Part shown: in pieces, positions 6,029 to 28,529 of the stretch | Layout of the letters: every line of letters starts with the position of its first letter | Numbering within the stretch: the stretch's first letter is position 1 | Assembly (NCBI GenBank): GCA_020247545.1 | Contig: JADCIX010000037.1 | Coordinates: 1 to 43,751, forward strand | Length of the DNA stretch: 43,751 nt | DNA from: Rhodocyclaceae bacterium | GTDB lineage: Bacteria; Pseudomonadota; Gammaproteobacteria; Burkholderiales; Usitatibacteraceae | Direction: 5' to 3' | Program-made: the position numbers and the translations under genes | The notes under the pieces: model-generated | The model's database searches: none | Seen by the model: the letters and a program-made list of their open reading frames with translations, nothing else | What the model was told of the DNA's origin: nothing

Positions 6029-6069
6029 TTGTGCAAGTCTACCAAATACGCGATAATTTGTCCGGACAA
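6029..6069 (+). promoter_or_regulatory. Promoter and palindromic operator 1 (TTGTCCGGACAA) for the LeuC-type gene
   Basis: A -35 TTGTGC (6029-6034), a 17-bp spacer and a -10 GATAAT (6052-6057) are followed directly by the perfect palindrome TTGTCCGGACAA at 6058-6069. The operator would cover the transcription start, a classic repressor position. The same abutting arrangement recurs at other copies of the palindrome in this window. It may also affect the divergent gcdH operon, at a longer distance. Confidence 0.8.
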
Positions 6070-6088
6070 CTTTGCGACCCCCCGACTC

Positions 6089-7357
6089 ATGATGCCTCAA
6101 ACGATTAGCCAGAAGATTATCGCCCGCGCGGCGGGTCGGGCGTCGGTTGCGGTTGGTGAGATTGTCACCTGCAAAGTGGATCTGGCGATGATGCACGACT
6201 CCGGCGGCCCGCGGCGGGTCGAGTCAAAGCTCAAAGAGCTCGGCGTCGGCATTTGGGATCCGGCAAAAGTCGTGTTGGTATCGGACCACTACACCCCTGC
6301 GATTGATGTCGATTCGGCTGGAATCTTGTCGCTCACACGCAAGTTCGCCGTGCTGCACCAAATAAACAACTTCTACGATGGCGAGGGTATTTGCCACGTC
6401 ATCCTGCCCGAGCGCGGGCACATGAAGCCGGGCCTGTTTGCGGTTGGTGGTGATTCACATTCACCATCAGGTGGTGCATACGGTGCCTTTATGGTGGGTA
6501 TTGGCGCGACCGAAATGGCGGGTGTATTAGCCACCGGTGAAGTCTGGGTGCGGGTGCCTGCCACCATTCGTGCGGAGTGGAGTGGCGCGCTAGGCAGGGG
6601 ACTCGCCGCAAAAGATATTCTGCTGAAACTTTGCGCCACACTCGGCATGAACAACGATTACAAAGTCATCGAATATGCCGGCTCGACCGTCGCTGGAATG
6701 TCGATGAACGAGCGGCTGACCATGAGCAACATGTCTGCCGAACTCGGCGCCAAGACCGGCATCATCGCGCCGGACGCCACAACCATCGCCGACCTGGCGG
6801 CCAAGGGCGTGCAGGTGGAAGACTGGCGGCGCAACTTAGCAAGTGATGCTGACTGCGCCTATGAAGCCGTGCATCGGTTTGATGCCACAACACTTGCGCC
6901 ACAAGTTGCCGCGCCACACACGCCGGCTAACAGCCATTCAGTCGTGGATACCGACAAACGCAAACTCGACCAAGCTTATCTGGGTGCTTGCACCGGTGCT
7001 AAAGAGAACGATTTACGTATGGCGGCCGAAATATTGAAAGGCCGCAAAGTAGCGAAGGGTACACGGTTATTGATTGCCCCGGCATCAACACAAACGACCG
7101 CCAAACTCGCGGCAGATGGCACGCTTGCCATTTTGTTGGAAGCCGGCGCGCAGATGTTGCCAACCGGCTGTGGCGCATGTGCGGGGTACGGTGCCGGCGT
7201 GTTGGCTGATGGTGAGGTCGGTATTGCGTCCACCGCGCGTAACTTCAAAGGCCGTATGGGTTCTGCCAAAGCAGATGTGTATCTCGCATCGCCCTACACA
7301 GTTGCTGCCTCGGCGGTTAAAGGTGAGATTGCCGATCCGCGGGAGTTTTTGTCGTGA
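6089..7357 (+). CDS. LeuC/aconitase-family dehydratase large subunit
   Basis: A 422-residue [4Fe-4S] hydro-lyase subunit of the short 3-isopropylmalate dehydratase/homoaconitase type. The cluster ligands are Cys301 (GACTGAKEND), Cys361 and Cys364 (TGCGACAGYG). Other marks are GGDSHSPSGGAYGAF and STARNFKGRMGS. It pairs with the small subunit at 7594. These enzymes hydrate or isomerise 2- and 3-hydroxy dicarboxylates. Outside leucine synthesis, relatives act on citraconate/citramalate, maleate or dimethylmalate, which fits the catabolic surroundings better than leucine synthesis (no leuA or leuB is present). Two ATGs (6089, 6092) are possible, with no clear ribosome-binding site; an in-frame ATG at 6023 would lie upstream of the promoter and is rejected. 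Confidence 0.88.
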   Translation: MMPQTISQKIIARAAGRASVAVGEIVTCKVDLAMMHDSGGPRRVESKLKELGVGIWDPAKVVLVSDHYTPAIDVDSAGILSLTRKFAVLHQINNFYDGEGICHVILPERGHMKPGLFAVGGDSHSPSGGAYGAFMVGIGATEMAGVLATGEVWVRVPATIRAEWSGALGRGLAAKDILLKLCATLGMNNDYKVIEYAGSTVAGMSMNERLTMSNMSAELGAKTGIIAPDATTIADLAAKGVQVEDWRRNLASDADCAYEAVHRFDATTLAPQVAAPHTPANSHSVVDTDKRKLDQAYLGACTGAKENDLRMAAEILKGRKVAKGTRLLIAPASTQTTAKLAADGTLAILLEAGAQMLPTGCGACAGYGAGVLADGEVGIASTARNFKGRMGSAKADVYLASPYTVAASAVKGEIADPREFLS

Positions 7358-7434
7358 GGCAACACCAACTACGCTTTCAATTGGCCTCAGTTCTGGCGCT
7401 GCAAACGCGTTATTGTCAGTGGCAATCTTCGCAC

Positions 7435-7573
7435 GTCGTCCCGGCCCCGTATCGGTGTACAGAACAAGCTCCGACCGGGACCAAAGTTGGTCTGCGCATG
7501 ATTTGCCAAGAAAATTGGGCACCACCCCACGCATGTCGTCCCGGCGCAGTTACGCGACTCGGCCGGGATGACA
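7435..7573. repeat. MITE-like element with GTCGTCCCGG termini, between the two dehydratase subunit genes
   Basis: About 139 bp bounded by inverted ends: GTCGTCCCGGCC at the left (7435-7446) and GGCCGGGATGAC at the right (7561-7572). An internal repeat of the left end (TGTCGTCCCGGC, 7534-7545) pairs with GCCGGGATGACA (7562-7573) as a hairpin at 11 of 12 positions. It fills the 236-bp gap between genes that are usually almost adjacent. Similar termini bound the element at 13871-13982, so both appear to belong to one dispersed family. No coding content. Confidence 0.6.
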
Positions 7574-7593
7574 GTCTTCGGGGTATGCGATAA

Positions 7594-8109
7594 ATGAGCA
7601 GCGAGAGCCCACTCGTCCGTATCTGGAAATTCGGCGATCAAATCGATACCGACGTATTGGCCCCCGGCCGCTACATGAAGGGCACGATTGATGAACTCGC
7701 CGCACACTGTCTGGAAGCCGTTCGCCCCGAATTCGCCGCACAAGTGAAGCTTGGCGATCTCGTTGTTGGTGGCGTGGGATTTGGTATCGGCTCTTCGCGT
7801 GAACAAGCGGCGCAAGCGCTAAAACACCTTGGCGTCGGTGCAGTGATTGCCACCGGTGCCGCGCGTATCTTCTATCGCAACGCGATCAACTTGGGGCTAC
7901 CGGTGCTCGTCTCAGCTGATGCGGACAAACTTATCGACGGCGCGATGGTGCGGTTTGATCTTGCATTAGGAAAAATTTATGACGCCGACGGCAACTTGCT
8001 CGCGCAATGCGAGCCACTACCGGATTTCCTACTGGAGATCGTCCGCGATGGTGGACTAATTCCAAATCTAAAGAAGCGAGTCTCCGAAAAGTCAGCGCTG
8101 ACAGGTTGA
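7594..8109 (+). CDS. LeuD-family dehydratase small subunit
   Basis: A 171-residue swivelling-domain subunit of an aconitase-family hydro-lyase. Typical marks are VRIWKFGDQIDTDVLAPGRY near the start, FGIGSSREQAAQALKHLGVG in the middle (substrate-binding loop with the Ser-Ser-Arg), and ATGAARIFYRNAINLGLPVL after it. It partners the large subunit ending at 7357. The unusual spacing is due to an intervening repeat element, which may uncouple translation of the two subunits. The ATG at 7594 begins MSSESPLVRIW; no strong ribosome-binding site is visible. Function as for the large subunit: reversible (de)hydration of a branched or unsaturated dicarboxylate (inferred). Confidence 0.88.
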   Translation: MSSESPLVRIWKFGDQIDTDVLAPGRYMKGTIDELAAHCLEAVRPEFAAQVKLGDLVVGGVGFGIGSSREQAAQALKHLGVGAVIATGAARIFYRNAINLGLPVLVSADADKLIDGAMVRFDLALGKIYDADGNLLAQCEPLPDFLLEIVRDGGLIPNLKKRVSEKSALTG

Positions 8110-8179
8110 ACTCATTGAGGGTATCCCCGCCCGCGCTGGTAGGTGCACTGGGATTGCGAGGCGAGCAATAAACTTTTCG

Positions 8180-8218
8180 TTGACTCAACGGTTTAAGATC
8201 GGTAACGTTATCCGACAA
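8180..8218 (+). promoter_or_regulatory. Possible promoter with degenerate operator upstream of the FG-GAP/DUF1800 gene
   Basis: A -35 TTGACT (8180-8185), a 17-bp spacer and a weak -10 TAACGT (8203-8208) are followed by TTATCCGACAA (8208-8218). That sequence resembles the regulon palindrome TTGTCCGGACAA with one substitution and one deleted base. Its position, 32 nt before the ATG and touching the -10, matches the intact copies. The geometry makes it worth recording; the sequence match alone is modest. Confidence 0.35.
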
Positions 8219-8249
8219 AAAAATTTAACACATCATCTGGGGTGCGTGA

Positions 8250-11066: not shown

Positions 11067-11074
11067 GAGCCGAC

Positions 11075-14099: not shown

Positions 14100-15533
14100 C
14101 TACATGCGTGGTTCGGTGATGGGCGGGAACCACCACGGGTTATGTTGTTCGGTCACGTTTTCAATCAACATCCGTTTACGCCGAAAGCGGGTGATGGAGG
14201 TGTCCCCCATGCGTGATGGGCCAAGGCCGGAATTCTTGAAGGCTTGTTTCTCACCATCGTGAACAATCGCTGTCAGCGCCGCATCGTTAATGCTGATGGC
14301 ACCGCCATCCATCTTTTTCGCAACCTCGATGGCGCGTTCACGCGGGCCGAACACCGCACCGGACAATCCAAACTCGGTGCCGTTGGCGAGAGCGATACCT
14401 TCTTCTGCGTTGGCGACCGACATCACCGGCAACACGGGGCCGAACGTTTCCTCGGTCATGATTTTCATGTCGGCCTTGACGTCAACCAACACCACCGGTT
14501 TGCACCAGAGGCCACCGCCATGTGATTCAACATTGCCACCCGCCAGCGCCTTGGCGCCGCGCGTATAGGCGTCGTCGAGCTGCGCACGGATAGTTTCGGC
14601 CTGGCGCTCAGCGATCAGCGGGCCAACGACACCGTCGTCGATATTCGGATAGGCGAGCTTGAGCGCATTACACTCGGTTGCGAGTGCAGCCACGAATTCT
14701 TGGTACACCGGTGCCTCAACAAATACCCGCTCGACTGACAGACAAGACTGGCCGGCGTTGGCGTTGCCGCCCCATGCCACCGACCGTGCCGCGCGTGGAA
14801 TGTCAGCGCCTTCTAGCACGATCACGGCATCCTTGCCGCCGAGCTCCAAGAAACACGCAATCAAACGCTCTGCGCAGTGGCGCGCGATGATGCGACCCGT
14901 CGCAACACTGCCGGTAAAACATACCGCGTCAGCGTTGTCGATCATCGCCGCACCCGTTGCCGGGCCACCCTGCACAAAGCTGAGCACGTTGGCCAGTTCG
15001 GGCACGCTGTTGATGGCGCGTTGTAACGGCCCAACAAACCGCGGCGTCACTTCAGACGGTTTGACCATCACTGCACATCCTGCGGCAAGCGCGGGAATGG
15101 TATCGATCAATGCCAAGAGCAGTGGAAAGTTCCACGGACTGATGACCGCAACCAACCCCACCGGCACACTCGCCGCGGTGAGCGTCATCGGTTTGACCAC
15201 GCTTTCCCGCGTAGCGGGTTCTTCAAGCAATGCGGGGGCGCGAGTCGCCCAGCGCAGGATGTTGCCGATCGCTGAATCAACTTCCAACTCGGATTCGCGT
15301 TTACGGCCGGTGTCGTTGACCAGTGCATCCATGAGCGCCTGGCGTTCTGCCTTGACGGCTTCGGCAAATCGAAACAATACGGCACAACGGTCAGCCGCCG
15401 GCATCTCGGACCAAACGGGGCTATGGGCCCGAAGTTTGGTTGCGCGCTCGGCGATTTCAGCCGGCGTGACAATCGGAAACTGGTAGTCGTATTGCCCGTT
15501 GCGCGGGTTGCGAACACGAAACATTTCGCTCAT
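14100..15533 (-). CDS. NAD(P)-dependent aldehyde dehydrogenase
   Basis: A 477-residue ALDH-superfamily enzyme, cytoplasmic, oxidising an aldehyde to an acid. Catalytic features: Asn135 (ISPWNFP), Lys158 (VKPSEVTP), Glu230 (LELGGKDAV) and Cys264 (NAGQSCLSVERV), with EETFGPVLPV near residue 370. It is the last gene of the leftward operon enoyl-CoA hydratase / DUF1330 / nitrilase-like / ALDH and overlaps the preceding gene by 4 nt (ATGA), indicating translational coupling. Overall character is that of benzaldehyde- or succinate-semialdehyde-type dehydrogenases; the substrate cannot be read from sequence. The operon starts at operator 17727. Confidence 0.92.
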   Translation of the reverse strand: MSEMFRVRNPRNGQYDYQFPIVTPAEIAERATKLRAHSPVWSEMPAADRCAVLFRFAEAVKAERQALMDALVNDTGRKRESELEVDSAIGNILRWATRAPALLEEPATRESVVKPMTLTAASVPVGLVAVISPWNFPLLLALIDTIPALAAGCAVMVKPSEVTPRFVGPLQRAINSVPELANVLSFVQGGPATGAAMIDNADAVCFTGSVATGRIIARHCAERLIACFLELGGKDAVIVLEGADIPRAARSVAWGGNANAGQSCLSVERVFVEAPVYQEFVAALATECNALKLAYPNIDDGVVGPLIAERQAETIRAQLDDAYTRGAKALAGGNVESHGGGLWCKPVVLVDVKADMKIMTEETFGPVLPVMSVANAEEGIALANGTEFGLSGAVFGPRERAIEVAKKMDGGAISINDAALTAIVHDGEKQAFKNSGLGPSRMGDTSITRFRRKRMLIENVTEQHNPWWFPPITEPRM

Positions 15534-16573
15534 TTTGGTGTGGCCTTGTTTTGAATTGCGGCGATGCCTCGCTCGATGGCCGCGCGGAATCCTGCGCGCG
15601 ATGGCTTTTCATTGGCGAGAACATTGGGTGGGTAGACACTCATCTGGTAGGTGGTCGCAAATGGCTCGAGGCGCAGTCGTGCCAGATAGTTATCCATGCC
15701 GACACGACCGCGCACATGTCGGATGGTGGCGGGGTCAATCTGGGTGAGGGCGACCATCGATTCCCCGTAGCCGGCTTCTGCCAAGATGCGGCCTTCGTAA
15801 TCAATCACCATCGAGCCGCTATCCGTGGATGCCATCGGAATGTCGATGCCCGCGATACCCGCACTGTTGGCAGACACCACGTAGGCCAGGTTCTCGACCG
15901 CACGTGCACGTTTGGCGATACCTTTTTTGGTTGCCTGTGGGCTGCCGGTTTCAGATGACGAATGCAGGAAAATTTCGGCACCGCGTAGCGCCAATGAGCG
16001 TGCCACTTCGGGGAACAAAATTTCTTCGGATGCGATGCAGGCGAGATTGCCAAGTGGCGTGTCCGCGACCGGGAAGGCGGCCTCAGCGCCGTATACATCC
16101 ACAAACTTGTCCCAAACGTCATGTGGTGTCGCGGTGTACATCGAAATGAGACGGCGGTAGCGAAGGATCAATTCGCCTTGATCATTGATGATGAAACTCA
16201 CCTGAAACGAAAGATCCGAAAACTTGGGGTCGATCTCGTAAGCATTGCCGGAGAGATAGACACCGTTCTTCTTGGCGACTTCACCAAGCGCCTTGTACTC
16301 GGGACCGTCTTGCAGCAGGCATGCACGTGCGGCCCATGTTGGGAGGTCAGGGCCGGTTGGAAAACTGGTTAGAAAATACTCAGGCAACACCACCAGCTTC
16401 AAATCGTCGCCGGAAAACATCTTGGAGGCGGCGATCTGCCGGTCGATACGCGCAATGGATCGCATCATCTGTGCGCGACACGCGGCTACGTCGCTGATGC
16501 TGTTGACCGCATCACAACGTATTTGTAGTGCCAGTGCACGGTAGGGTCCGAATAGGTTCGGTTGAGATGACAT
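15530..16573 (-). CDS. Nitrilase-superfamily (C-N hydrolase) protein with altered catalytic residues
   Basis: A 347-residue carbon-nitrogen hydrolase fold. The Glu of the triad is present (LPEYF, Glu65). In the lysine motif the sequence is LRYRRLI, with Arg at about 141. In the nucleophile motif (normally CxDxxFPE) the sequence is SEEILFPE, with Ser182 where the catalytic Cys should be; the nearest Cys (179) is three positions early. It is either a non-hydrolytic partner protein or uses changed chemistry. Start and stop overlap both operon neighbours (1 nt with DUF1330, 4 nt with ALDH). No signal peptide. The fold assignment is firm; amidase activity is doubtful. Confidence 0.85.
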   Translation of the reverse strand: MSSQPNLFGPYRALALQIRCDAVNSISDVAACRAQMMRSIARIDRQIAASKMFSGDDLKLVVLPEYFLTSFPTGPDLPTWAARACLLQDGPEYKALGEVAKKNGVYLSGNAYEIDPKFSDLSFQVSFIINDQGELILRYRRLISMYTATPHDVWDKFVDVYGAEAAFPVADTPLGNLACIASEEILFPEVARSLALRGAEIFLHSSSETGSPQATKKGIAKRARAVENLAYVVSANSAGIAGIDIPMASTDSGSMVIDYEGRILAEAGYGESMVALTQIDPATIRHVRGRVGMDNYLARLRLEPFATTYQMSVYPPNVLANEKPSRAGFRAAIERGIAAIQNKATPK

Positions 16574-16902
16574 CAGTCGGCCTGTGAGGTTGTGTTGGGT
16601 TGAGAGGAGGTGTTAACAAAGCCATCAAGCAGGATCACCTGTGCATCACAGATGCCTTCGCGCAGTTTACGAATCTCGGCATATTCCGCAGAATGCCAGT
16701 AGGCGAGTGCCGCGTCTTTGGTTGGCCATTCGGAAACTACCTTCTTGCCAACCGTAGGCTGCCCTTCGAGAGTATCTCCCTCAGGGCCTAGCACCAGATA
16801 TTTGCCGCCCATCCGTGTAACCAGTGCCGCGTTCGCCGAACCGTAGGCGGCAAATCGCTTGGCGTCATGAATGACCGCGCTGACAAAGATATAGGCTGGC
16901 AT
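16573..16902 (-). CDS. DUF1330 family protein
   Basis: A 109-residue ferredoxin-like (dimeric alpha+beta barrel) protein of the DUF1330 family, with the typical start MPAYIFVSAVIHDAKRFAAY and the motif VVSEWPTKDAALAYWHSAEY. Members are small and often accompany catabolic enzymes; some relatives in the barrel superfamily bind aromatic or small organic ligands, but no general function is established. It lies 20 nt after the enoyl-CoA hydratase gene and shares one base with the nitrilase-like start codon. The 15-residue Ser/Thr/Asn-rich tail is unremarkable. Confidence 0.85.
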   Translation of the reverse strand: MPAYIFVSAVIHDAKRFAAYGSANAALVTRMGGKYLVLGPEGDTLEGQPTVGKKVVSEWPTKDAALAYWHSAEYAEIRKLREGICDAQVILLDGFVNTSSQPNTTSQAD

Positions 16903-16922: not shown

Positions 16923-17699
16923 TCAGAATTTTGGTACGCGTTTTTCAATGAAGGCGGACGCACCTTCGGCAAAGTCAGTACCTTTGAAGGCGTCGGCGAA
17001 GATCTGTCTCGTCTCGGCATCGTCGTTCGTTTGTCCCGCTCGAATCTTGAGCAGGGATTGCTTGATCCCGCGTGCGCTATATGACGATAGGGAGGTAATT
17101 CTCGACAGCATGGCTGCTACTGCCGATGGCAACAACGCGGGATCGACACACTCGGTAACCATGCCCCAATTCACAGCGGTCGCCGCATCGACCTCCTTGG
17201 CGAGTAACAGGATCTCACGTGCACGCGCCGCACCGACCAACTCAACCACCCGCAGACAATCAACCAACCGATATGTCAGGCCGAGCTTTGACGGCGTGAT
17301 GGCGAACTTGGCGTCGGTTGTACACAGGCGAAAGTCGGAGGCCGCCGCGAGTGCGGCACCGCCGCCATAACACGTGCCGCAGATGACGGCGATGGTTGGC
17401 TGCGGTAACGCAGCAAATGCGTCTAACGCCTGCGCAATCGTGTCTTGGTTGTGTGCCATCCAGGCGGTATCGCCGACGTGTTCACGCAACTCGTGGATAT
17501 CGGCACCTGCGCTGAAGTGCGCGCCTTCACCTTGCAACACAACTGCGCGAACATCGCCGTTGGCCGCAATCGCTGTACATGTCTCGGCCAATGCGTGCCA
17601 GGTCGTGGTGTCCAGCGAATTGCGTTTTGCTGGTCGCGCGATGGTGACCATTGCCACAGAATCGACAACTTTAAGCAGAAGGGAAGGGCTGTCTGACAT
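16923..17699 (-). CDS. Enoyl-CoA hydratase/isomerase (crotonase) family protein
   Basis: A 258-residue crotonase-fold protein, first gene of the leftward operon controlled from 17727. Oxyanion-hole motifs are HFSAGADI (61-68) and GTCYGGGAALAAASD (108-122). Of the two catalytic glutamates of classical hydratase, the first position (Glu144 in the rat enzyme) aligns with Ser137 (ITPSKLGLTYR), while the second is kept as Glu162. Simple hydration may therefore not be its reaction; isomerisation, C-C cleavage or thioester hydrolysis are family alternatives. It probably acts on a CoA thioester made by the island's CoA-transferases. Confidence 0.9.
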   Translation of the reverse strand: MSDSPSLLLKVVDSVAMVTIARPAKRNSLDTTTWHALAETCTAIAANGDVRAVVLQGEGAHFSAGADIHELREHVGDTAWMAHNQDTIAQALDAFAALPQPTIAVICGTCYGGGAALAAASDFRLCTTDAKFAITPSKLGLTYRLVDCLRVVELVGAARAREILLLAKEVDAATAVNWGMVTECVDPALLPSAVAAMLSRITSLSSYSARGIKQSLLKIRAGQTNDDAETRQIFADAFKGTDFAEGASAFIEKRVPKF

Positions 17700-17717: not shown

Positions 17718-17746
17718 GTGACAAAGTTGTCCGGACAAATTATATT
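17718..17746. promoter_or_regulatory. Divergent promoters sharing palindromic operator 2
   Basis: TTGTCCGGACAA is at 17727-17738. Rightward, GTGACA (17718-17723), 17 bp and TATATT (17741-17746) form a promoter with the operator in its spacer, for the alpha/beta hydrolase at 17783. Leftward, a perfect TATAAT (17744-17739 on the minus strand) is followed directly by the operator, for the enoyl-CoA hydratase operon. A bound repressor would block both. Confidence 0.8.
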
Positions 17747-17782
17747 CGTGATCCAAGTCCTGTGCTTTCCGGAGTAATCAAC

Positions 17783-18601
17783 ATGAAACGACTGTTTATC
17801 GAAACAAGCAAGGGGCAACTTCACGCGCGATCCCACACAGGCGATCCTCCTGCTGCCACCCCTCCGTTGGTGATGTTGCATGCTGCACCGGGAAGCGCGC
17901 TAATGTTGTCTAACTTGCAGGTTCGATTTAAACAACGCTCGCTCGCCATCGATCTCCCCGGTATGGGGGACTCCGACCCGCTGCCGATACGTGCTGACAA
18001 GGCAGAACCGACAATCGGCGATTTCACGGACATGGTCGAACAAGCGATTCTCGACATCTACGACGAGCCGGTAGACGTATACGGCACCTTGTCGGGGGTA
18101 AGGGTTGCGCTGGAACTCGCCAACCGTCACGTGCTGCCAGTACGGCGTGTTGTGCTGGATGGCATTGGCATCCCCAAATCTGAACAACTCGATGAACTGC
18201 TCGCCGACTACGCACCTGATTTCACGCCGGACATCAACGGTAACCACTTGATGAATACGTTCCAGCTTTGTCGTGACCAATATTTGTTCTACCCGTGGTA
18301 TGCGCGCGACGCCGAACATCGGCGTCCAACCGGTTTGCCAAGTGCGGCCGCATTACATACCAAAGTGATGGAAAGTTTGAAATCTGCGGTTGCTTTCCGA
18401 CCGCTGATTCGCGCCGCCTTCCGCTACGATTGTGCGTCCGCGTTGGCAGCGCTTAAACAACCCGCTCTCATCACCGCTGATGGATCAGCGGTACGCGGGG
18501 ATTTACCGCTGCTGGAGTTTCCGCCTGCAGAGCCGTTAACCTGCCCACCGGATCTGCTGGATAAACGTGCGGCGAGGATCGCAGCTTTTTTAGACAGCTA
18601 A
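17783..18601 (+). CDS. Alpha/beta hydrolase-fold protein lacking a canonical nucleophile
   Basis: A 272-residue alpha/beta hydrolase fold. The oxyanion segment HAAPGSA (33-39) and LPGMGDSD (58-65) are recognisable. The nucleophile elbow reads VYGTLSGVRVALELA, where the GxSxG Ser is replaced by Leu103, and no C-terminal GH motif is seen. A cap motif, DINGNHLMNTFQLCRDQ then LFYPW (around 150-172), is shared with both halves of the protein at 24290, defining a local paralogue family. The start at 17783 is supported by GGAG 8 nt upstream (a start at 17762 is rejected). Role unknown: cofactor-free oxygenase/lyase-like chemistry or ligand binding are possibilities for such folds. Confidence 0.82.
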   Translation: MKRLFIETSKGQLHARSHTGDPPAATPPLVMLHAAPGSALMLSNLQVRFKQRSLAIDLPGMGDSDPLPIRADKAEPTIGDFTDMVEQAILDIYDEPVDVYGTLSGVRVALELANRHVLPVRRVVLDGIGIPKSEQLDELLADYAPDFTPDINGNHLMNTFQLCRDQYLFYPWYARDAEHRRPTGLPSAAALHTKVMESLKSAVAFRPLIRAAFRYDCASALAALKQPALITADGSAVRGDLPLLEFPPAEPLTCPPDLLDKRAARIAAFLDS

Positions 18602-21006: not shown

Positions 21007-21083
21007 AGGAGCCTGATCGACCGTTGATACAAGGTTAGCTGAAATGCCGCTTGCACTCAAATCAGGCCAAAAAAACAAACGCT

Positions 21084-21196: not shown

Positions 21197-23380
21197 TTAT
21201 TTGAAGCGATAACGCAAATCGATACCATAGGTCCGCGGCACGTTCAGATACGCGTCGGCCATGCCGATACCGGCGATATCGAATGCGCCGGTGTAGTAGA
21301 TTTTGTTACCCAGGTTTTTGCCCCACAGTGCCACCGACCACTTGCCACCTTTGACATCGTAGCCGATCCGCGCATCGACCAATGAGTAGGCTTGTGTCTT
21401 AATGAGTTCGGACACTGCAAGGTTCTGGTAGTGGTCGCCAACGCGTTTCATACCGGCATTCAGGTTGATTGTGCCGTCGGCGGTTTTGATGCGGTAGTTG
21501 GTGCCGAGACCCCACTGTTGTTTCGGCGCTTGTTTGAGTGCTTTGCCGGCAAACGTGGCGGCGTTGGCCGCGCTGAAGTCTTGATACTTGCTATCCAGTG
21601 TTCCCAAGTGTCCGCTGATTTGCCAGTCCGGCGTAATCTGCGCCACCGCCTCCAGTTCGAAACCCTTGATCAGGGCGCTGGCCGCATTGGTCAGGTTCGA
21701 CACACCATTGGCATCAAATGCCGTTAGTTGCAAGTCCTTGTAGTCATTGCGGAAGTAGTTGATGTTGAATCGTACTTTGCCGTCTGCTAACGTGGTCTTG
21801 AAGCCGACCTCGTAGGACTTCACGGTTTCCGGCTTCAGTGTGGTGAATTGGGCAATCGAGCCGGCACGACCATTAAAGCCACCGCTCTTGAAGCCGGTGG
21901 ATGCCGATGCATATGCCAGAATTTCTTTGCTCAACTGCGCATCTAGTCCAAACTTCCAATCGGTGTTGGTCCAAGTGTTTGACTTCGCGACCCGGAACGC
22001 TTCAGTACCGTTGGTACGAATCGATATGATCGAAAAATCTTTTGATTCTCGGCTCGAGCGCATACCTGCGGTGAGTTTCCACACCGGGTTCAAGCGGTAA
22101 TCCGCCTGGCCGTAAAGGGCCGACGCCTTGACGGTTTGTGCCAGCAGATTGGTGGCACCCGGTGCAAAGATGTCTTGCCGGGTCGGCTGGTCGTTTTGCT
22201 CTTTGAATGCAAACAAACCGGCTGTCCAAGACAGTGCGCCTTTTCCGGTCGAGATCAGTTGCGATTCAAGGCTATTCTGACTCTGCCGCTGGTCTTGGAA
22301 CAAATGGAAGCGGGTCTGCGCCGTCCCATCGAGATCGATTGCCAGCGCGTTGTCCATCTTGCGATAGGCATAAATATTGCGCCACTCGACCGATTCAAAG
22401 TCAGTCGACGTCACCACCGACAATCCGCTTTGATCGAGGTCGTTGCGACCGGCACCCGGTGGCAAGTTGGTTTCGATGGTTAGCAAGTTGCCGTCGGCAT
22501 TATTGATTGGCCGATTAAAACGTGCTGCTGCTGCGGCGTCGATGACGCCGCTCGCGTACTGCGGACCGCTACGTTGTCTCAATAAATCTCCCGCCACGGT
22601 CACCCGCGTACTGCCCATGTTGAAACCGATGCTTCCACGGGCACCGTAGATCTGTTCGTCATTTACCTTGCCGCCGTTGGTGATGTCTTTAAGGTATCCG
22701 TCACGCGCTTTGGACATCACGCCGAAAGTGGCATCGACCCCTTCCGACAGCTTGGTGCTAACCGACGCACGCACATCCAATCGATGGAAGTTGCCAACGC
22801 GGCCTTCGACGTCGAACTTCTCAGCGCCGGTGGGCTTCGCTGTTACGTACCGAATTGCACCGCCCGGTGCGTTGCGACCGTACAGCGTGCCCTGCGGCCC
22901 CCGCAGAACTTCGATGCGGGTGACGTCAAACATATCAAGCAGCGCACCCGTCATGCGCGGCATATAGACGTCGTCGATGTATATGGCGACTGACGGGTCG
23001 GCGGAGAACAACGATTCGTCAGTACCAACACCGCGCATAAAGATCTTCGCCGCCGATGAGGTACCGGTGGCGGGTTCGATCACCATGTTTGGCACTTCAA
23101 ACTTCATGTCGTCCAGACGGCGAATCTGCTTTTGCTCCAAGTCTTTTGCCGACAGGGTCGTAATCGCAACTGGAACCTTTTGCAACTCCTCCTCACGCCG
23201 CTGCGCGGTCACAACGATGTTTTCGAGTTTATCGTCCGCTTTCGCCTCCGGCTTGGCGGCGGTGCCTTGTGCCGTAGCGGAGTCGATCGCCAGCGCGGAA
23301 ACCGCCAGTGCCACTGCAATGTGCATCACGCTAAATTTGCCAAGGCTTGCTTGGCCTGGTTGATTCAATGATTGGTTCAT
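21197..23380 (-). CDS. TonB-dependent outer-membrane receptor
   Basis: A 727-residue receptor. The signal peptide ends near DSATAQ. A TonB-box-like ENIVVTAQRREE follows, then the plug domain (VPVAITTLSAKDLEQKQ, RGVGTDESLFSADPSVAIYIDD, RIEVLRGPQGTLYGRNAPGG) and a beta-barrel ending in the C-terminal aromatic GIDLRYRFK. Receptors of this length and plug type are common in proteobacteria that import organic substrates as well as siderophores. It is controlled by the double operator at 23545-23588, and GGAG lies about 7 nt before the ATG. A GTGGCTT tandem repeat sits in the 5' leader. It is probably the uptake route for the island's substrate. Confidence 0.95.
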   Translation of the reverse strand: MNQSLNQPGQASLGKFSVMHIAVALAVSALAIDSATAQGTAAKPEAKADDKLENIVVTAQRREEELQKVPVAITTLSAKDLEQKQIRRLDDMKFEVPNMVIEPATGTSSAAKIFMRGVGTDESLFSADPSVAIYIDDVYMPRMTGALLDMFDVTRIEVLRGPQGTLYGRNAPGGAIRYVTAKPTGAEKFDVEGRVGNFHRLDVRASVSTKLSEGVDATFGVMSKARDGYLKDITNGGKVNDEQIYGARGSIGFNMGSTRVTVAGDLLRQRSGPQYASGVIDAAAAARFNRPINNADGNLLTIETNLPPGAGRNDLDQSGLSVVTSTDFESVEWRNIYAYRKMDNALAIDLDGTAQTRFHLFQDQRQSQNSLESQLISTGKGALSWTAGLFAFKEQNDQPTRQDIFAPGATNLLAQTVKASALYGQADYRLNPVWKLTAGMRSSRESKDFSIISIRTNGTEAFRVAKSNTWTNTDWKFGLDAQLSKEILAYASASTGFKSGGFNGRAGSIAQFTTLKPETVKSYEVGFKTTLADGKVRFNINYFRNDYKDLQLTAFDANGVSNLTNAASALIKGFELEAVAQITPDWQISGHLGTLDSKYQDFSAANAATFAGKALKQAPKQQWGLGTNYRIKTADGTINLNAGMKRVGDHYQNLAVSELIKTQAYSLVDARIGYDVKGGKWSVALWGKNLGNKIYYTGAFDIAGIGMADAYLNVPRTYGIDLRYRFK

Positions 23381-23431: not shown

Positions 23432-23523
23432 GTGTAGAAGTCATGGGCTACAGCGTGACCAAGTCAGGTGAACAAAGTCAGATGTCGCCAAGATATCGTT
23501 CCGAGGGCGCTACTGAAACTTAA

Positions 23524-23608
23524 CTTGTTTTTTGTTGCAGGACAGACTAAATTTGTCCGGACAACTATTTGTCCGGACAAATTTAGTCTCATCGACTGAC
23601 GCTGTCAA
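23524..23608. promoter_or_regulatory. Divergent promoters with a double operator (palindromes 3 and 4)
   Basis: TTGTCCGGACAA occurs at 23553-23564 and 23569-23580, centres 16 bp apart. The whole 44-bp stretch 23545-23588 is itself an inverted repeat, with arms GACTAAATTTGTCCGGACAA identical over 20 bp. Leftward, a consensus TTGACA (23608-23603, minus strand) with 17 bp to TAAATT, or 16 bp to CTAAAT abutting the operator, serves the TonB receptor. Rightward, TTGTTT (23525-23530) with 16 bp to CTAAAT (23547-23552) serves the gene at 23729. This is the strongest site in the window. Confidence 0.85.
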
Positions 23609-23728
23609 GACAATGACGTGAAACAGCCGGGAACCCTCGCAACTCGTTGGATTTCTACAACGCTACTGTGCAAAAAGTAAATGTGGCTGTAATCCGTCTT
23701 GAAGCTGCTGACTAAAACAGGGTATGCA

Positions 23729-24178
23729 ATGAATTCAATCAAACAGTCCATGCCAGATTTGTTCAGGCATAACGGCGTCTGGGAAGGCGTCTACCACTTG
23801 GTAGATGCGAAAGGCAAAACGCTCGACCGGCATCACTCCCGCATTGAAGTGCGATTTCCGGAAACCGGCCCGCACCAATATATGCAGAAGAATCATTTTT
23901 GGTGGGATGATGGACGCGAGACACACGGCGAATATCCCGGCGTGTGCCGCGATGGCATCTTGTTCTGGGATAACGAGTTGATCCGTGGCAAAGCATGGTC
24001 GGTAGATGAATTATCCACCGTACTCACATGGCAGCGCCACGACACGCCAGACGCATACTTGTACGAACTCATTGTCATCAACCAGACCAACGATAAGCGC
24101 AGCCGTACTTGGCATTGGTTTCGCAATGGGGTGATTTATCAGCGGACGCTGATAGATGAGAGAAAAGTTTCGGACTAG
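23729..24178 (+). CDS. DUF3598-like small protein (lipocalin-type fold suspected)
   Basis: A 149-residue soluble protein without a signal peptide. The pattern HNGVWEGVYHLVDAKGKTLDRH, then HFWWDDGRETHGEYPG, then LFWDNELIRGKAW and WHWFRNGVIYQRTLIDE resembles DUF3598-type lipocalin/fatty-acid-binding-like proteins, which form a beta-barrel that binds small hydrophobic ligands. This is recollection of a pattern, not a database match. The ATG at 23729 is preferred over one at 23699 because the family-like start MNSIKQSMPDLFRHNGVW follows it. It is divergent from the TonB receptor and shares the double operator, so it probably handles the imported substrate or an early product. Confidence 0.7.
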   Translation: MNSIKQSMPDLFRHNGVWEGVYHLVDAKGKTLDRHHSRIEVRFPETGPHQYMQKNHFWWDDGRETHGEYPGVCRDGILFWDNELIRGKAWSVDELSTVLTWQRHDTPDAYLYELIVINQTNDKRSRTWHWFRNGVIYQRTLIDERKVSD

Positions 24179-24191
24179 TCGTGATTGGCGA

Positions 24192-24237
24192 TTGTAGTAC
24201 TGACTGTTTGTCGCTAGAATGAAAGTTGTCCGGACAA
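24192..24237 (+). promoter_or_regulatory. Promoter with palindromic operator 5, upstream of the tandem hydrolase operon
   Basis: TTGTAG (24192-24197), 17 bp and TAGAAT (24215-24220) form a plausible promoter. TTGTCCGGACAA follows at 24226-24237, centred about 11 bp after the -10, so it would overlie the transcription start. The leader to the ATG at 24290 is about 60 nt. Confidence 0.72.
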
Positions 24238-24289
24238 ATTACTTTAGGCAGTTTGTTCCTTCCGGGCGCTGCAACCGGACTCTTCGCGC

Positions 24290-25996
24290 ATGTCGATATC
24301 TTCCTCCGCTGTTTCCACGCACCCGATATCAGCCCAGTTCATCGATGTTGCCGGGCGGCGGGTGTTGGTGCGTTTTGCCGGAAGTGGGCCCGCGGTGTTG
24401 TTGCTGCACCAGTCACCGCAAAATTCGCGTGCGTTAATTGCTTGGATTGAGCGCCTGTCGGCGCACTATTCGGTGTTCGCGCCAGATACGCCGGGCTTTG
24501 GCTACTCCGATCCGCTACCGCTCGCTCAGCCGACCATCCCGGACTATGCCGCCGCCCTGAGTGCGTTGCTGGATGCGCTTGGTATCGAGCGCGTGATCGT
24601 AAACGGTGTTCATACCGGCGCGGTGACCGCGCTGCGATTTGCCCTCGACTTTCCGGCGCGTGTAGCGGGATTGATCTGTGATGGTTATGCGCGATTCAAT
24701 GCCGAAGAACGTCAGCTACTGCTGAATGGTTATCTGCCGCCGTTCGAGCCGCAATGGGACGGCAGCCACCTATTGTGGTTGTGGGCGCGCCTGCGCGAGC
24801 AGCATCTGTTTTTCCCGTGGAACACAGCGACAAAATCCGCGCGTATGGCTTATCCGGCACCGTCAACAGAGCGGCTCAGCGGTGATGTGCTCGACATCCT
24901 CGACGCTGGGGACGGTTATCGTGCTGGCTACCGCGCGCCTTTCTTGTACGACGATGCGACGGCCGCATCGCGGCTGACGGTTGAGACGTGCATCTTCTAC
25001 CGTGCCGAGGATGTGCTCGTCACGCATTTGCCGCGTCTACAAGGATTGCCGACAAATGTGGTGGCTGAAATTGTCAACGGCGGGCCAGCGGCGCTGATCG
25101 AACGCACTGATGCATTTATCGCCTCCCACGCCGCCAATGCAAGCCGCCTGAATGCGGGCGCTGCGGTGTTTGGTGCGGTTTCAACTCGGCGGCGAGTGTT
25201 TGACACGACTCATGGGTCGATGTGTGCGCTGATTGCGACTAATGGTGGCGATCTTGCGAGTTCGTTGGTCGTGGTGCATCTGAGCGAGATTGGCACCCCG
25301 GCCAGAATTCCGGTTGAGGTACCACACGGGTCACCAGTGATTGCGCCGGAGTTACCCGGGCACGGCGCGTCGCAAGTTTGGTCGGTGGAGGCCGTTACAG
25401 TGGGCGCGGTCGCACAATCAGTGTTGGAGGTTTTGCAGGCGCTTGGTGTGACACGTTTTTCTGTCACCGCCGATGGCGCGGCCGGCGCAATTGCCGCGGC
25501 GTTGGCCCAGGTGTCGGCGGTAACAGATGCGAAGCCGCGGTGCGAGCAGGTGCGCCTGCACAATCCGATGTTGCTCAACGACGCGGAGCGTGCGCAGTTT
25601 ATTTCTCAGTTGCCAGATCTGACGCCGCACTCAACTGGCGCGCATATGCTCGCCGCATGGAACTGGGCGCGTATGAAGGCGCTGTTCTGGCCATGGCAGC
25701 AGCCAACCATGGCTGCCGCGCGCAAGGTGGATGCGCCGGCACCCGTGCGCCTGCATCCCGAGGTTGTGGAAATTCTTCGCGCTGGCGCTTTGTTCGCGCC
25801 GCTTTGGCGGACGGCATTAGCCGATAGGGTGTACTTGGCCCTGGCCGAACACGATGGTCTCATCACGATCCAGTGTGACGACGAACCAGAGCGGGTACGT
25901 ATCGTCAACACATTGGCAAAAACACTTGGCCTTGTTGAGGCGACATTGTCGATAGGTGAGCAGTCAAACGGAGTCAGATCATGGCAGAAACCCTAA
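24290..25996 (+). CDS. Tandem (two-domain) alpha/beta hydrolase-fold protein
   Basis: 568 residues made of two alpha/beta hydrolase-like halves, about 15-285 and 300-555. In half 1 the oxyanion segment LLLHQSPQNS and DTPGFGYSD are present, and the nucleophile elbow is NGVHTGAVTAL (His108 where Ser is expected). Half 2 is more degenerate: its elbow reads TADGAAGAIAA, with Gly396 at the nucleophile place. Both share the cap pattern of the 17783 protein (DGSHLLWLWARLREQ/LFFPW in half 1; HSTGAHMLAAWNWAR/LFWPW in half 2). It may be a fused duplication with a catalytic and a non-catalytic half, or neither catalytic. No clear ribosome-binding site precedes 24290. It overlaps the next gene by 16 nt. 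Confidence 0.8.
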   Translation: MSISSSAVSTHPISAQFIDVAGRRVLVRFAGSGPAVLLLHQSPQNSRALIAWIERLSAHYSVFAPDTPGFGYSDPLPLAQPTIPDYAAALSALLDALGIERVIVNGVHTGAVTALRFALDFPARVAGLICDGYARFNAEERQLLLNGYLPPFEPQWDGSHLLWLWARLREQHLFFPWNTATKSARMAYPAPSTERLSGDVLDILDAGDGYRAGYRAPFLYDDATAASRLTVETCIFYRAEDVLVTHLPRLQGLPTNVVAEIVNGGPAALIERTDAFIASHAANASRLNAGAAVFGAVSTRRRVFDTTHGSMCALIATNGGDLASSLVVVHLSEIGTPARIPVEVPHGSPVIAPELPGHGASQVWSVEAVTVGAVAQSVLEVLQALGVTRFSVTADGAAGAIAAALAQVSAVTDAKPRCEQVRLHNPMLLNDAERAQFISQLPDLTPHSTGAHMLAAWNWARMKALFWPWQQPTMAAARKVDAPAPVRLHPEVVEILRAGALFAPLWRTALADRVYLALAEHDGLITIQCDDEPERVRIVNTLAKTLGLVEATLSIGEQSNGVRSWQKP

Positions 25997-27576
25997 ATGA
26001 ATACGCGACTCAGGCGACGAGGTCTGCGGCCAAACCAGCCTGGTTCACGACACTACAGGTAGCGCTCGGCGCGGGGGCCGTGTCAGCCGAGGATGCCACG
26101 CTTGATTTTTACGCACAGGATGTTTTCGGCCGAGGCGAGGCGCTTGCGGCGGTGGTGTCGCCGAGTACCATGGATGAGTTGCAGATCACCGTGAAAACGC
26201 TCGCCGCCGCAGATGTGGCAATGGTGCCGCGTGGTGGTGGCTTGAGTTATACCGATGGTTACTTGGCGAGACAAAAGGGCTCGGCGCTAATCGATTTGAC
26301 GCGTATGGATAAGTTGGTCGAGCTCAACACGGCCGATCGTTATGTCACCGTTGAGACCGGTATGTATTGGGCGACGTTAAACGAGTTGCTGGCGCCGCAT
26401 GGCTTGCGTACGCCTTATTGGGGGCCGCTATCCGGGCTGCGTTCAACGATCGGCGGTGCGCTGTCGCAGGGCAGCGTGTTTTTGGGTTCTGGTGAATACG
26501 GCAGTGTTGGTGAAAGCGTGTTGTCGCTTGATGTGGTGTTGGCCGACGGTTCTGTTCTGACCACGGGCAGCGCTGCGGCTGGAGTGAATACGAAGCCGTT
26601 CATTCGTTATTTCGGCCCCGATCTGACCGGGCTGTTTGTCGGGGATGCGGGTGCACTCGGTATCAAGGCAAGGGCGACTTTCAAGCTGATTCCTCGCGAA
26701 GTTGAAATCGATTTTGTCTCGGCTGAATTCGATAATCCGACCGCGATGATTGAAGCGATGTCAGAAATTTCACGCAACGATATTGCCGCGGAGTGTTTTT
26801 CCTTTGATCCCGTGTTGTTGGAGCAACGCAAGAAGCGCATGAGCTTGTTGGCCGACGCAGAAACACTGCTCAAGGTCGTCAAACAGTCCGGCGTCATGGC
26901 TGGTCTGGGTTTGGTGAAGTCGGGGCGCGACTTTGTTGGCGAGGACAAATACTCGGCACACGTTTCCATAGAAGGCAAGACCGCTGGTGAGGTCGCGGCG
27001 AAAGTAGAGGCGGCTAAAAGGATTTTTGCGGCGAAGGGGCGGGCTACCGAGAACTCGTTTCCCAAGGCGTTGCGGGCGATGCCGTTTTCGCCGCCGAATT
27101 CTATGCTGGGTCCTGCTGGTGAACGCTGGGTACCGGTTCACGCCATCTTCCCCCATAGCACCGCGCAACGTGCGTTCACGGAGATTCAGGCGTTTTTTGC
27201 CGCGAAACAAGCGTTGCTCGAGGTGCACCAAATACGGATTGGTTATCTCTGCACAACTGTCGCGCAGCAGGGATACTTGATCGAACCGGTGTTCTACTGG
27301 AATGACTCCCACACGGCTTATCACAAACGTGTCGTGGAAGCCGACTACCTGAAGAAGTGTGGGGAGCCAGCGGCAAACCCCAGCGCTACTGCGGCAGTTG
27401 GCGCATTAAAGGCCGAAACTGCCCGTCTGATGCGGAGTTTGGGTGGCACTCATTTCCAGATCGGCAAGTTCTATACCTATCGCGAAGGCCGCAATCCGGC
27501 TGCGCTGGCGCTGTTTGATGCCATCAAGAAGCAGCTTGACCCCCAAAACATCATGAATCCAGGAGTATTGAAATGA
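25981..27576 (+). CDS. FAD-binding oxidoreductase (FAD-linked oxidase, PCMH type)
   Basis: A 531-residue flavoenzyme. The N-terminal PCMH FAD-binding domain (about 50-235) shows VPRGGGLSYTDGY, YWGPLSGLRSTIGGALSQGS and GDAGALGIKARATFKLIP. The C-terminal FAD-linked oxidase domain ends with HFQIGKFYTYREGRN and LDPQNIMNPGVLK. Relatives include glycolate/lactate oxidases and 4-cresol/vanillyl-alcohol-type oxidases, so it probably oxidises a hydroxyl- or phenol-bearing intermediate. Start 25981 has GGAG 8 nt upstream and overlaps the hydrolase gene by 16 nt; the stop overlaps the VOC gene by 4 nt. It is cytoplasmic (no signal). Confidence 0.9.
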   Translation: MAETLNEYATQATRSAAKPAWFTTLQVALGAGAVSAEDATLDFYAQDVFGRGEALAAVVSPSTMDELQITVKTLAAADVAMVPRGGGLSYTDGYLARQKGSALIDLTRMDKLVELNTADRYVTVETGMYWATLNELLAPHGLRTPYWGPLSGLRSTIGGALSQGSVFLGSGEYGSVGESVLSLDVVLADGSVLTTGSAAAGVNTKPFIRYFGPDLTGLFVGDAGALGIKARATFKLIPREVEIDFVSAEFDNPTAMIEAMSEISRNDIAAECFSFDPVLLEQRKKRMSLLADAETLLKVVKQSGVMAGLGLVKSGRDFVGEDKYSAHVSIEGKTAGEVAAKVEAAKRIFAAKGRATENSFPKALRAMPFSPPNSMLGPAGERWVPVHAIFPHSTAQRAFTEIQAFFAAKQALLEVHQIRIGYLCTTVAQQGYLIEPVFYWNDSHTAYHKRVVEADYLKKCGEPAANPSATAAVGALKAETARLMRSLGGTHFQIGKFYTYREGRNPAALALFDAIKKQLDPQNIMNPGVLK

Positions 27577-28454
27577 GTGGACCCAGGCTCTTGCACGGCA
27601 CTGTCTGCGTGCCGGCTCTTGATCAGGCGTTATTGCTTTACCGCGATCTGTTCGAGCAAACGGTTGTTCATACCGGAACGGTCGGCAAAGCGGAAGCGGA
27701 AGCGTGGGAAGCCCCGGCGCTGGCAGGAGCCAAGAGTGTGGTCATGCAGCCGCCCAGCGGTTCGCCGGTCTACCTGCGGCTAATTGAACAGGCCGACCCG
27801 GCGGGTTATCACCCCGGGACACACTACGGGTGGGCCGCCTTGGAGTTATCAGTGAAGGATGCCGACGCGATGTACGCGCGCTTACTTGCGGCGGGCACAC
27901 CCATCATCGCCGCACCAAAAGCACTTTCGTTTACTGACATGTTGTATCCGATGCAAGCAAGGGGTCCCGGGGGAGAAGCGATCTACCTGAACGAGATTCG
28001 CGGCGATCTACCGTCGAGTGATTTGCCGATGGCCAAGTGCTGGGTTGACCGCCTGTTTATCGCGGTGATGGGCTGCCGCGATATGAAAACCTCGCTTGTT
28101 TTTTATCATGCCCTGCTTGGAACGACCACCGGCGGCGAATGGGAGATGCCCTACAGCGTGATCAACCTTGCGTTTGGTTTGGATGCCTCCACCGCACACA
28201 AACTGGCGACAATTTCCGATCGGCGCACGGTGTTGTTCGAGGTTGATCAATATCCCGTCAAATCCACCCAAAGGCCACAGTCGAATGGCAGCCTGCCGCA
28301 GGGAGTAGCGATGATCGGTGTGAAAGTTGATGTCTTGCCCGTTGGTGCAAGCTGGGTTGTTCCGCCATCGGCGCGCACGCAAGCGCCGTACTTCGGCGCA
28401 ACAGTGGGTGTGGTGCGTGGACCAGATGGGGAGTTGACCGAATTGGTCTGCTGA
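27573..28454 (+). CDS. Two-domain VOC protein (glyoxalase/extradiol dioxygenase fold)
   Basis: 293 residues with two vicinal-oxygen-chelate modules (about 5-145 and 155-293). Module 1 has a His at residue 9 (LHGTVCVPALDQALLLYRDL) and Glu in IYLNEI as likely metal ligands. Module 2 begins DRLFIAVMGCRDMKTSLVFYHALLG and ends VRGPDGELTELVC, with Glu but no matching His at the start. The arrangement is like type I extradiol ring-cleavage dioxygenases, but isomerase or lyase activity is equally possible. It is translationally coupled to the FAD oxidoreductase (ATGA overlap, AGGAG 8 nt upstream) and is the last gene of that operon. Confidence 0.85.
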   Translation: MSGPRLLHGTVCVPALDQALLLYRDLFEQTVVHTGTVGKAEAEAWEAPALAGAKSVVMQPPSGSPVYLRLIEQADPAGYHPGTHYGWAALELSVKDADAMYARLLAAGTPIIAAPKALSFTDMLYPMQARGPGGEAIYLNEIRGDLPSSDLPMAKCWVDRLFIAVMGCRDMKTSLVFYHALLGTTTGGEWEMPYSVINLAFGLDASTAHKLATISDRRTVLFEVDQYPVKSTQRPQSNGSLPQGVAMIGVKVDVLPVGASWVVPPSARTQAPYFGATVGVVRGPDGELTELVC

Positions 28455-28488
28455 CACACCACCAATTGATGTGGGGTGCATGATCCGT

Positions 28489-28529
28489 TTGACGGACACT
28501 GTTTCTGAGCATAAAATTTGTCCGGACAA
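28489..28529 (+). promoter_or_regulatory. Promoter and palindromic operator 6 for the long HapK-to-VOC operon
   Basis: TTGACG (28489-28494), 17 bp and TAAAAT (28512-28517) directly abut TTGTCCGGACAA (28518-28529). The geometry is identical to operator 1 at 6058. The first gene starts at 28557 with GGAG upstream. Confidence 0.85.

Follow-up and report, generated by a model that had tools for sequence, protein, structure and literature searches.

Operators of the HutC subfamily of GntR regulators have 4 nt between GT and AC in most members and follow the consensus GTMTAKAC; its TA centre is not universal, as operators of other kinds are listed too. FadR/VanR-type operators read GTM-N0-1-KAC, with 2–3 nt between GT and AC. 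These rules come from those parts of PMC4494728 that treat operators, which also correlate positions 28 and 39 of the helix-turn-helix (HTH) with the outer and central bases of HutC operators. For NagR (YvoA) of Bacillus subtilis, the section of PMC4333415 on DNA contacts has Arg38 reading G-5 and Arg48 reading G-4, with the wing residue Gly69 touching G-7, a base present once per native site. A catabolic point of reference is PA0878-PA0883 of Pseudomonas aeruginosa, presented in portions of PMC9875883 as an operon for branched short-chain dicarboxylates (itaconate). Here we analyse contig JADCIX010000037.1 of a Rhodocyclaceae bacterium (43,751 nt; from here: the window, C31 among the contigs of its genome) and the 12-bp palindrome TTGTCCGGACAA found six times in it. 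As judged from comparison of related genomes, this palindrome, with its extended form AAKTTGTCCGGACAAMTT, is very probably the operator of one conserved regulon, paired with a HutC-subfamily regulator encoded on a second contig, C15.

Exact search places TTGTCCGGACAA at positions 6058, 17727, 23553, 23569, 24226 and 28518 of the window, the very coordinates given by an earlier reading of the letters (from here: the sequence-only reading). That reading had noticed no other copy, and the window holds none; the sole other match at up to two mismatches lies at 1043. Each of the six falls in an intergenic stretch or a leader, in agreement with its description of divergent or leader regions. The genome-wide search it had proposed shows the palindrome not to be frequent: the 3.54 Mb of this genome (G000, 95 contigs) hold 10 exact copies, the six of the window plus C15:9425, C41:111980, C45:212064 and C68:37780. 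The regulon drawn across 22 kb holds as one regulon but reaches well beyond that length.

With independent bases at the genome's own composition, 0.0024 exact copies are expected per window and 0.20 per genome, and the same independence gives a probability of about 3e-19 for at least six copies in the window. Read backwards, TTGTCCGGACAA has no exact copy in this genome, and at up to two mismatches there are 155 matches genome-wide versus 83 for the reversed pattern. The extended consensus AAKTTGTCCGGACAAMTT was derived from an alignment of 57 sites, made up of exact copies and variants in one outer base. Outside the family, 55 of 386 genomes of the order carry one to three exact copies (61 sites). 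With at least 10 of the 59 listed sites adjoining homologous regulators, this count is not a clean chance rate, and the chance rate was taken from the independent-base estimate in its place. Chance occurrence is rejected, with 10 copies against 0.2 expected and sites kept before corresponding genes in relatives. A literature search on the motif, made without regulon databases and supplementary tables, gave no title on a bacterial regulator; given that scope, the operator may have been described before.

The gene of the GntR-family regulator lies outside the window, on C15 (L011:1460-2182, minus strand). Its product combines an N-terminal GntR winged HTH (PF00392, 68.5 bits, cut-off 27) with a C-terminal UTRA effector domain (PF07702, 55.8 bits, cut-off 23.8) and has no FCD domain match at E 0.001; with GntR plus UTRA it is therefore of HutC type and not of FadR/VanR type. 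The sequence-only reading had suggested a GntR repressor of the FadR/VanR type. The family stands, and the subfamily is rejected for two reasons: the effector domain is UTRA, not FCD, and GT and AC are 4 nt apart instead of 2–3. The genome search found a single FCD-domain (FadR-type) GntR protein, encoded on C30, and for that contig neither an exact nor a one-mismatch site is listed.

The operon divergent from the C15 regulator encodes two MmgE/PrpD proteins, an AMP-binding-type ligase, an amidase and an MFS transporter. Beyond it comes a TonB receptor (TonB2), with the exact site C15:9425 before it; a methyltransferase-like gene comes after the regulator. One-mismatch sites of the form ATGTCCGGACAA / TTGTCCGGACAT occur on C15 at 2270, 2308 and 12596, and those at 2270 and 2308, of the form ATGTCCGGACAA, sit between the regulator and the first PrpD gene. 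At L011:12596 and L069:19344, TTGTCCGGACAT stands at the start of a short minus-strand frame, an arrangement kept between G000 and G013. In the complete relative G010 the regulator (1,454,582-1,455,298) is 21–36 kb from the window-equivalent sites (1,418,134-1,433,679) and about 8 kb past the last gene that could be matched to the window. Because regulator and sites are close together in that genome, C31 and C15, separate contigs here, probably belong to one genomic region.

Across 28 genomes of the family, several of them incomplete (73–90%), the palindrome tracks the regulator. Six genomes have an ortholog, with identities of 100% (G000), 98% (G013), 86% (G010), 81% (G014), 69% (G015) and 53% (G017), and carry 10, 10, 8, 8, 5 and 3 exact sites in the same order. 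Among the 22 without a close ortholog, 21 have no exact site and G016 has one that falls within an open frame of 344 aa and is probably due to chance. Testing two or more sites against ortholog presence with Fisher's exact test gives 2.7e-6, a value to be read with the genomes of one genus not being independent. All six ortholog genomes have one or two sites of the form ATGTCCGGACAA between the regulator and the divergent PrpD operon.

The footprinting that the sequence-only reading had asked for finds the palindrome conserved upstream of corresponding genes, which supports the shared control it had claimed for its named units. A site precedes the corresponding gene of the LeuCD-type pair in G010, G013 and G014, of the tandem-hydrolase operon in G010, G013, G014, G015 and G017, and of the HapK operon in G010, G013, G015 and G017. 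At the crotonase operon and its divergent hydrolase, crotonase stands beside the site in G010, G013 and G015; the G014 contig holds only the hydrolase side, and G017 has a site ahead of a DUF1838-crotonase run. The operator pair at the TonB receptor recurs with its 16-bp offset in G010, G013, G014 and G017, one box being altered by one letter in G010, G014 and G017; the receptor at this pair is 44% (partial) alike in G014 and 31% in G017. TonB2 has an exact site in G013 and G014 and a one-mismatch site in G010; in G015 another TonB-like gene has an exact site ahead of it. Three targets remote from the window behave likewise: the site is kept for DUF1838 in G010, G013, G014 and G017, for ETF-QO in G010, G013 and G014, and for an MDR oxidoreductase in G013.

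By gene context, 38 sites could be paired with sites of the own genome. In the 18 pairs with G014, G015 and G017 the 80-bp flanks are 34–54% identical and the core TGTCCGGACA is kept. The motif itself guided the selection of these sites, a single G017 site serves in two pairs, and the weak TonB cases account for three pairs; the test is therefore one of position and flank decay, not of motif identity.

Three loci of relatives depart from the common pattern. At L065:4955 (G010) the operator is kept between matches to PPIase-like and response-regulator-like genes of L013, and the MDR and hydrolase genes of G000 and G013 are not there. At L080:2837 (G015) an exact site stands before genes that the compared G000 loci lack, possibly a lineage-specific target. 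At L073:16690-18769 (G017) a different LeuC-like gene (32% to the window one) ends the PrpD operon and is followed by a 212-aa frame that may be a small subunit; the two perhaps replace the LeuCD-type pair.

Beyond the family, homologs of the regulator were searched for in 399 genomes of the order at E<=1e-22 and found in 45, of which 38 lie outside the family. At 11 of 29 homolog loci a site within one mismatch lies in the 250 bp upstream (seven in family f13, G319 in f11, G162 in f4, plus G023 and G024), and remote homologs with the operator at their own promoter are 31–38% identical to the C15 regulator. The negative control, 24 other HutC-like genes that were weaker matches of the same search, gave no site within one mismatch. 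G023 and G024, both of genus g4, have homologs 34 and 33% identical that share the helix SRHT with the C15 regulator; in each genome the only TTGTMCGKACAA is located upstream of the homolog, at about 45 and 70 bp, and the roughly 36 kb around the regulator show no further operator-like palindrome of note. Ten of the 59 listed exact sites outside the family, each of them from genus g16 of f13, have a homolog 108–126 bp downstream, and three more are on the homolog's contig, 3.0–4.6 kb away. A TTGTACGGACAA match was also seen in G020.

The genes near these remote homologs recall those of the regulon. In G262 (f11) an exact site stands directly ahead of a run of MaoC, acyl-CoA dehydrogenase, CaiB, regulator and PrpD, and in G319 the regulator, a neighbour of MaoC and PrpD, has a one-mismatch site on each side. 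Frames resembling CaiB, MaoC, acyl-CoA dehydrogenase, PrpD or CitE, one or more per locus, occur within about 1.5 kb of 13 of the 29 homologs; at the f13 loci this is only a 30–38% match to CaiB, a common family. A scan of 84,980 species gave five close orthologs (53–98%), Betaproteobacteria bacterium UKL13-2 among them, and then only mycobacterial matches of 25–29%, with some PrpD-, CitE- or CaiB-like frames nearby. The scan detects a locus only by either of two conserved peptides; the remote homologs of the order-wide search escaped it.

The operator, written as GT-CCGG-AC, has the HutC spacing of 4 nt between GT and AC. Its centre is CG, not TA, in all 57 sites, which were chosen as exact copies or one-outer-base variants. 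It shares with the HutC operators described in part in PMC4494728 the palindromic form, the 4-nt distance and a site pair in the divergon with the regulator gene, and differs from them in its centre and in covering ten units on five contigs of one genome. The best solved-structure relatives of the regulator are NagR/YvoA and DasR of Streptomyces (E ~1e-16 and 3e-12). A hand-read alignment shows that it retains NagR Arg48 (as R42) and Gly69 (as G63), and the motif keeps G-4; the equivalent of Arg38 is Leu, or Ile in G017, with T at -5 of the motif. Of the 57 sites, 40 have G at -7 in one half only, one has it in both halves and 16 have it in neither. This one-sided excess (26.5 expected from independent halves, P 0.0003) resembles the native NagR sites in the section of PMC4333415 cited above, and it could also stem from the adjoining -10 box. 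The similarity to NagR/YvoA and DasR is remote only, and their targets are amino-sugar genes where those here are catabolic. The CG-centred operator, unusual for the HutC subfamily, adds a class of HutC operators.

At the two HTH positions that correlate with operator bases, the C15 regulator and its orthologs have Leu or Ile (28) and His (39). G018, a genome of the same bacterial family, has a HutC-like gene in L025 with the helix SRMT, hence Met at 39, and upstream of it TTGTCTAGACAA, which differs from TTGTCCGGACAA only by a TA centre. A rule linking His-39 to the CG centre is suggestive on this comparison. The f13 homologs with an exact operator have Tyr at position 39, because of which a one-residue code is not established, and several homologs with the SRHT helix have no site; the simple rule that His-39 sets the CG centre is kept only partly.

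Besides these Tyr-39 homologs, several observations weigh against a single conserved pairing of regulator and operator. Outside the family, 46 of the 59 listed exact sites are on contigs where no homolog was found, and 18 of the 29 remote homologs, several with the SRHT helix and one (G004) at a contig edge, lack a site in the 250 bp upstream when one mismatch is allowed. The counts do not stand for independent events: a single genus comprises the six ortholog genomes, another the ten regulator-adjacent cases, and G023 and G024 are also congeneric. In addition, G010 keeps the C45-type site although the MDR gene is not there, and some sites of G014, G015 and G017 precede TonB receptors that are just 31–44% alike.

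The six operators of the window (given without strand, all exact matches) can be placed relative to starts and promoters. The first (6058..6069) lies upstream of the LeuC/aconitase-type gene, 19 nt from its ATG at 6089, touches GATAAT and is also within the divergent region shared with the acyl-CoA dehydrogenase operon. The second (17727..17738), between the crotonase operon (minus) and an alpha/beta hydrolase gene (plus), touches TATAAT of the minus-strand gene. An inverted pair (23553..23564 and 23569..23580) separates the TonB receptor (minus) from a 159-aa gene (plus). On its outer side towards the TonB gene the 23569 operator is touched by CTAAAT on the minus strand, a hexamer with three mismatches, with a perfect TTGACA 16 nt upstream; on the plus side of the pair no good promoter was found. 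With its flanks the pair forms one near-perfect inverted structure (23546-23587) with arms AGACTAAATTTGTCCGGACAA and a 16-bp offset. The tandem-hydrolase operon starts with an ATG at 24290, 52 nt from the operator at 24226..24237, which has TAGAAT at 5 nt distance. The nine-gene HapK operon starts with an ATG at 28557; 27 nt separate it from the operator at 28518..28529, which touches TAAAAT, with TTGACG at 17 nt. The -10 boxes that the sequence-only reading had seen abutting the operator are thus clear at 6058, 17727 and 28518 and weak at 23569.

Genome-wide, a -10-like hexamer is in contact with the operator at six of the ten units: LeuCD (GATAAT), crotonase (TATAAT), HapK (TAAAAT), TonB2 (TACAAT), DUF1838 (GAAAAT, two mismatches) and MDR (TAGAAT). 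The promoter score was matched by 7 of 5000 shuffles for HapK and 13 of 5000 for TonB2; the other four are weaker, their scores being reached in 3 to 11% of 300 shuffles. The distance from -10 box to operator is 4 nt for the regulator gene and 6 nt for the PrpD gene, and no -10 hexamer was seen at the ETF-QO operator.

Reading the window from its start, the minus strand carries two PuuE-like hydrolases, of the polysaccharide-deacetylase family. The first (2081..3154, with 2081-3085 searched) and the second (3061..3975, PDB relative PuuE 3cl6) both match PF01522 and reach 110 and 118 bits with the PuuE allantoinase model TIGR03212 (cut-off 424.6). They are joined on that strand by an isochorismatase-family hydrolase (3986..4648, PF00857, relatives including N-carbamoylsarcosine amidohydrolase) and an acyl-CoA dehydrogenase (4683..5876, NCBIfam, under equivalog cut-offs). 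On the plus strand follow the aconitase/LeuC-family hydratase large subunit (6089..7357, NF001614 at 505 bits over a cut-off of 385 for frame 6023-7357) and the LeuD/DmdB-family small subunit (7594..8109, TIGR02087 at 179 bits over 109). At the crotonase operon the minus strand carries an aldehyde dehydrogenase (14100..15533, NCBIfam, under equivalog cut-offs), a carbon-nitrogen hydrolase (15530..16573, PF00795), a DUF1330 protein (16573..16902, PF07045) and crotonase of the enoyl-CoA hydratase family (16923..17699, PF00378), and the alpha/beta hydrolase opposite is 17762..18601 (plus, PF00561). The TonB-dependent receptor (21197..23380, minus) matches NCBIfam TonB models under their cut-offs, and the 159-aa protein (23699..24178, plus) has no family at E 0.001. 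From the start of the tandem-hydrolase operon the plus strand carries an alpha/beta hydrolase of double length (24290..25996, PF00561), read as a tandem from its length and from NCBIfam matches in two stretches, an FAD-binding oxidase (25981..27576, PF01565) and a VOC/glyoxalase-family protein (27573..28454, PF00903).

The HapK operon, also on the plus strand, begins with a HapK/REDY-like protein (28557..28865, PF11639, 36.8 over 25 bits) and a short-chain dehydrogenase (28925..29797, NCBIfam SDR models, under cut-offs). The third PuuE-like hydrolase (29949..30851) scores 223 bits with TIGR03212, again under 424.6, and matches PDB 3cl6 at E 6e-60. Next come a CitE-type lyase resembling RipC/Ccl (30794..31723, PF03328), a MaoC-type hydratase resembling RipB/Ich (31741..32259, PF01575), an acyl-CoA dehydrogenase (32358..33530, NCBIfam, under equivalog cut-offs), two class III CoA-transferases of CaiB type (33679..34887, PF02515, and 34802..36016, NCBIfam CaiB-type models, under cut-offs) and, as last gene, a VOC/glyoxalase-family protein (35937..36641, PF00903). 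Among the regulon genes of the window, 8250-12592 and 18598-21078 encode two proteins with similar N-terminal halves, which by eye we take to be FG-GAP-like, the former followed by frame 11024-12592. They have counterparts in G013, none was seen between the same neighbours in G010, and so they seem to be accessory and not part of the regulon.

A hand count on the map gives the regulon about 37 genes in ten units. It includes two TonB receptors, an MFS transporter, three PuuE-like hydrolases, an isochorismatase-type hydrolase, a C-N hydrolase and an amidase; the LeuCD/DmdAB-type hydratase, two acyl-CoA dehydrogenases, two class III CoA-transferases, MaoC, CitE and two PrpD; and VOC proteins, HapK, SDR, crotonase, ALDH, an FAD oxidase and ETF-QO. 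CaiB, MaoC and CitE together in the HapK operon make an Ict-, Ich- and Ccl-type set, by family only. By enzyme type this recalls PA0878-PA0883 as given in the portions of PMC9875883 used here, with Ich (here MaoC), the Mch acyl-CoA dehydrogenase, MmgE/PrpD, Ict and Ccl (here CitE); that the putative ring-cleaving dioxygenase there may correspond to the VOC proteins here is a guess. The locus differs from that operon in having several units, two CoA-transferases and two PrpD proteins, and in adding many amide/imide-type hydrolases, TonB receptors and HapK. Scores with the itaconate equivalogs fall below cut-off (RipB, NF038241, 243 under 340 bits; RipC, NF038242, 190 under 375 bits), which counts against the reading. 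On this analogy the lower pathway probably handles a branched C4–C5 dicarboxylate, not necessarily itaconate, and ammonia is probably set free from an amide or a cyclic imide in the upper pathway; the dicarboxylates would probably be made from a nitrogen-containing precursor.

Use of amino sugars, ureides or allantoin in place of branched dicarboxylates is the alternative that survives best, and we consider it unlikely. The three PuuE-like hydrolases and the closeness of NagR among solved regulators would suit it; against this, the PuuE matches are far below the allantoinase cut-off, and the genes beside remote regulator homologs are of CaiB, MaoC, acyl-CoA dehydrogenase and PrpD types. A more specific version of the dicarboxylate reading, equally doubtful in our view, is what gene content may point to: complete aerobic use of alkyl-substituted cyclic imides, e.g. 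maleimides from the breakdown of cyanobacterial chlorophyll, haem or bilins. The PuuE-like hydrolases would then open the imide, the isochorismatase-type or C-N hydrolase would take off ammonia, the LeuCD/DmdAB-type hydratase would hydrate the dialkylmaleate, and CoA-transferase plus CitE lyase would cut the product into central metabolites, with a HutC protein of changed recognition residues sensing the branched dicarboxylate and reading the CG-centred operator. Literature on maleimides, cyclic-imide hydrolases, HapK and bilins yielded no pathway; in PMC4609964, HapK appears in one table.

From the placement of operators at -10 boxes, which fits blocking of transcription start, we infer repression rather than activation. 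A regulator dimer would bind the palindrome behind the -10-like box and block transcription, and an intermediate of the pathway would bind the UTRA domain and release the protein from DNA; the regulator would control itself and about 37 genes in ten units. ETF-QO would serve as electron outlet of the CoA-based branched-dicarboxylate pathway of CaiB, MaoC, acyl-CoA dehydrogenase, CitE and PrpD. The release by an inducer and the substrate class of branched C4–C5 dicarboxylates are likewise predictions from gene and site comparison. Some GntR proteins are dual or activating, and a NagR of Bacillus thuringiensis is said to be a dual regulator. Activation by the C15 regulator is nevertheless improbable, slightly more so than the amino-sugar alternative: a protein bound right behind the -10-like box, as at six of ten units, would block polymerase, and the close solved relatives YvoA/NagR and DasR are named repressors.

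Ownership of the motif by another transcription factor, a different GntR, MarR or TetR, with the C15 regulator merely among its targets, is very unlikely. A regulator gene can itself be the target of another regulator, the pairing proposed here comes from comparison, and the search for regulators covered the GntR genes of the genome. Yet motif presence follows the C15 regulator across 28 genomes, the operator recurs at the promoters of remote homologs themselves (as sole genomic copy in G023 and G024), the 24 other HutC-like genes lack the motif, and the HTH residues of the C15 regulator fit. A repeated DNA element (repetitive extragenic palindromic (REP)-like, uptake or structural signal), which identical copies in intergenic DNA might suggest, can be dismissed, as there are just 10 copies per genome, ahead of corresponding genes in relatives, nearly absent from close relatives without the regulator and set in neighbouring DNA that is not conserved.

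If the palindrome is read as the operator of the C15 regulator, genes clustered without apparent purpose become one defined regulon, for which the regulator is identified, the operator given to the letter and the list of target units short. The G018 pair of TTGTCTAGACAA and Met-39 makes the change of recognition code directly testable. UKL13-2, the complete member of the lineage and holder of one of the close orthologs, owes its assembly to a co-culture in which the cyanobacterium Aphanizomenon flos-aquae, a bloom-former, was the partner, according to the part of PMC5248499 that describes its origin. Because of this origin, cyanobacterial pigments or metabolites are reasonable candidate substrates, and the co-culture thus suggests what to test.

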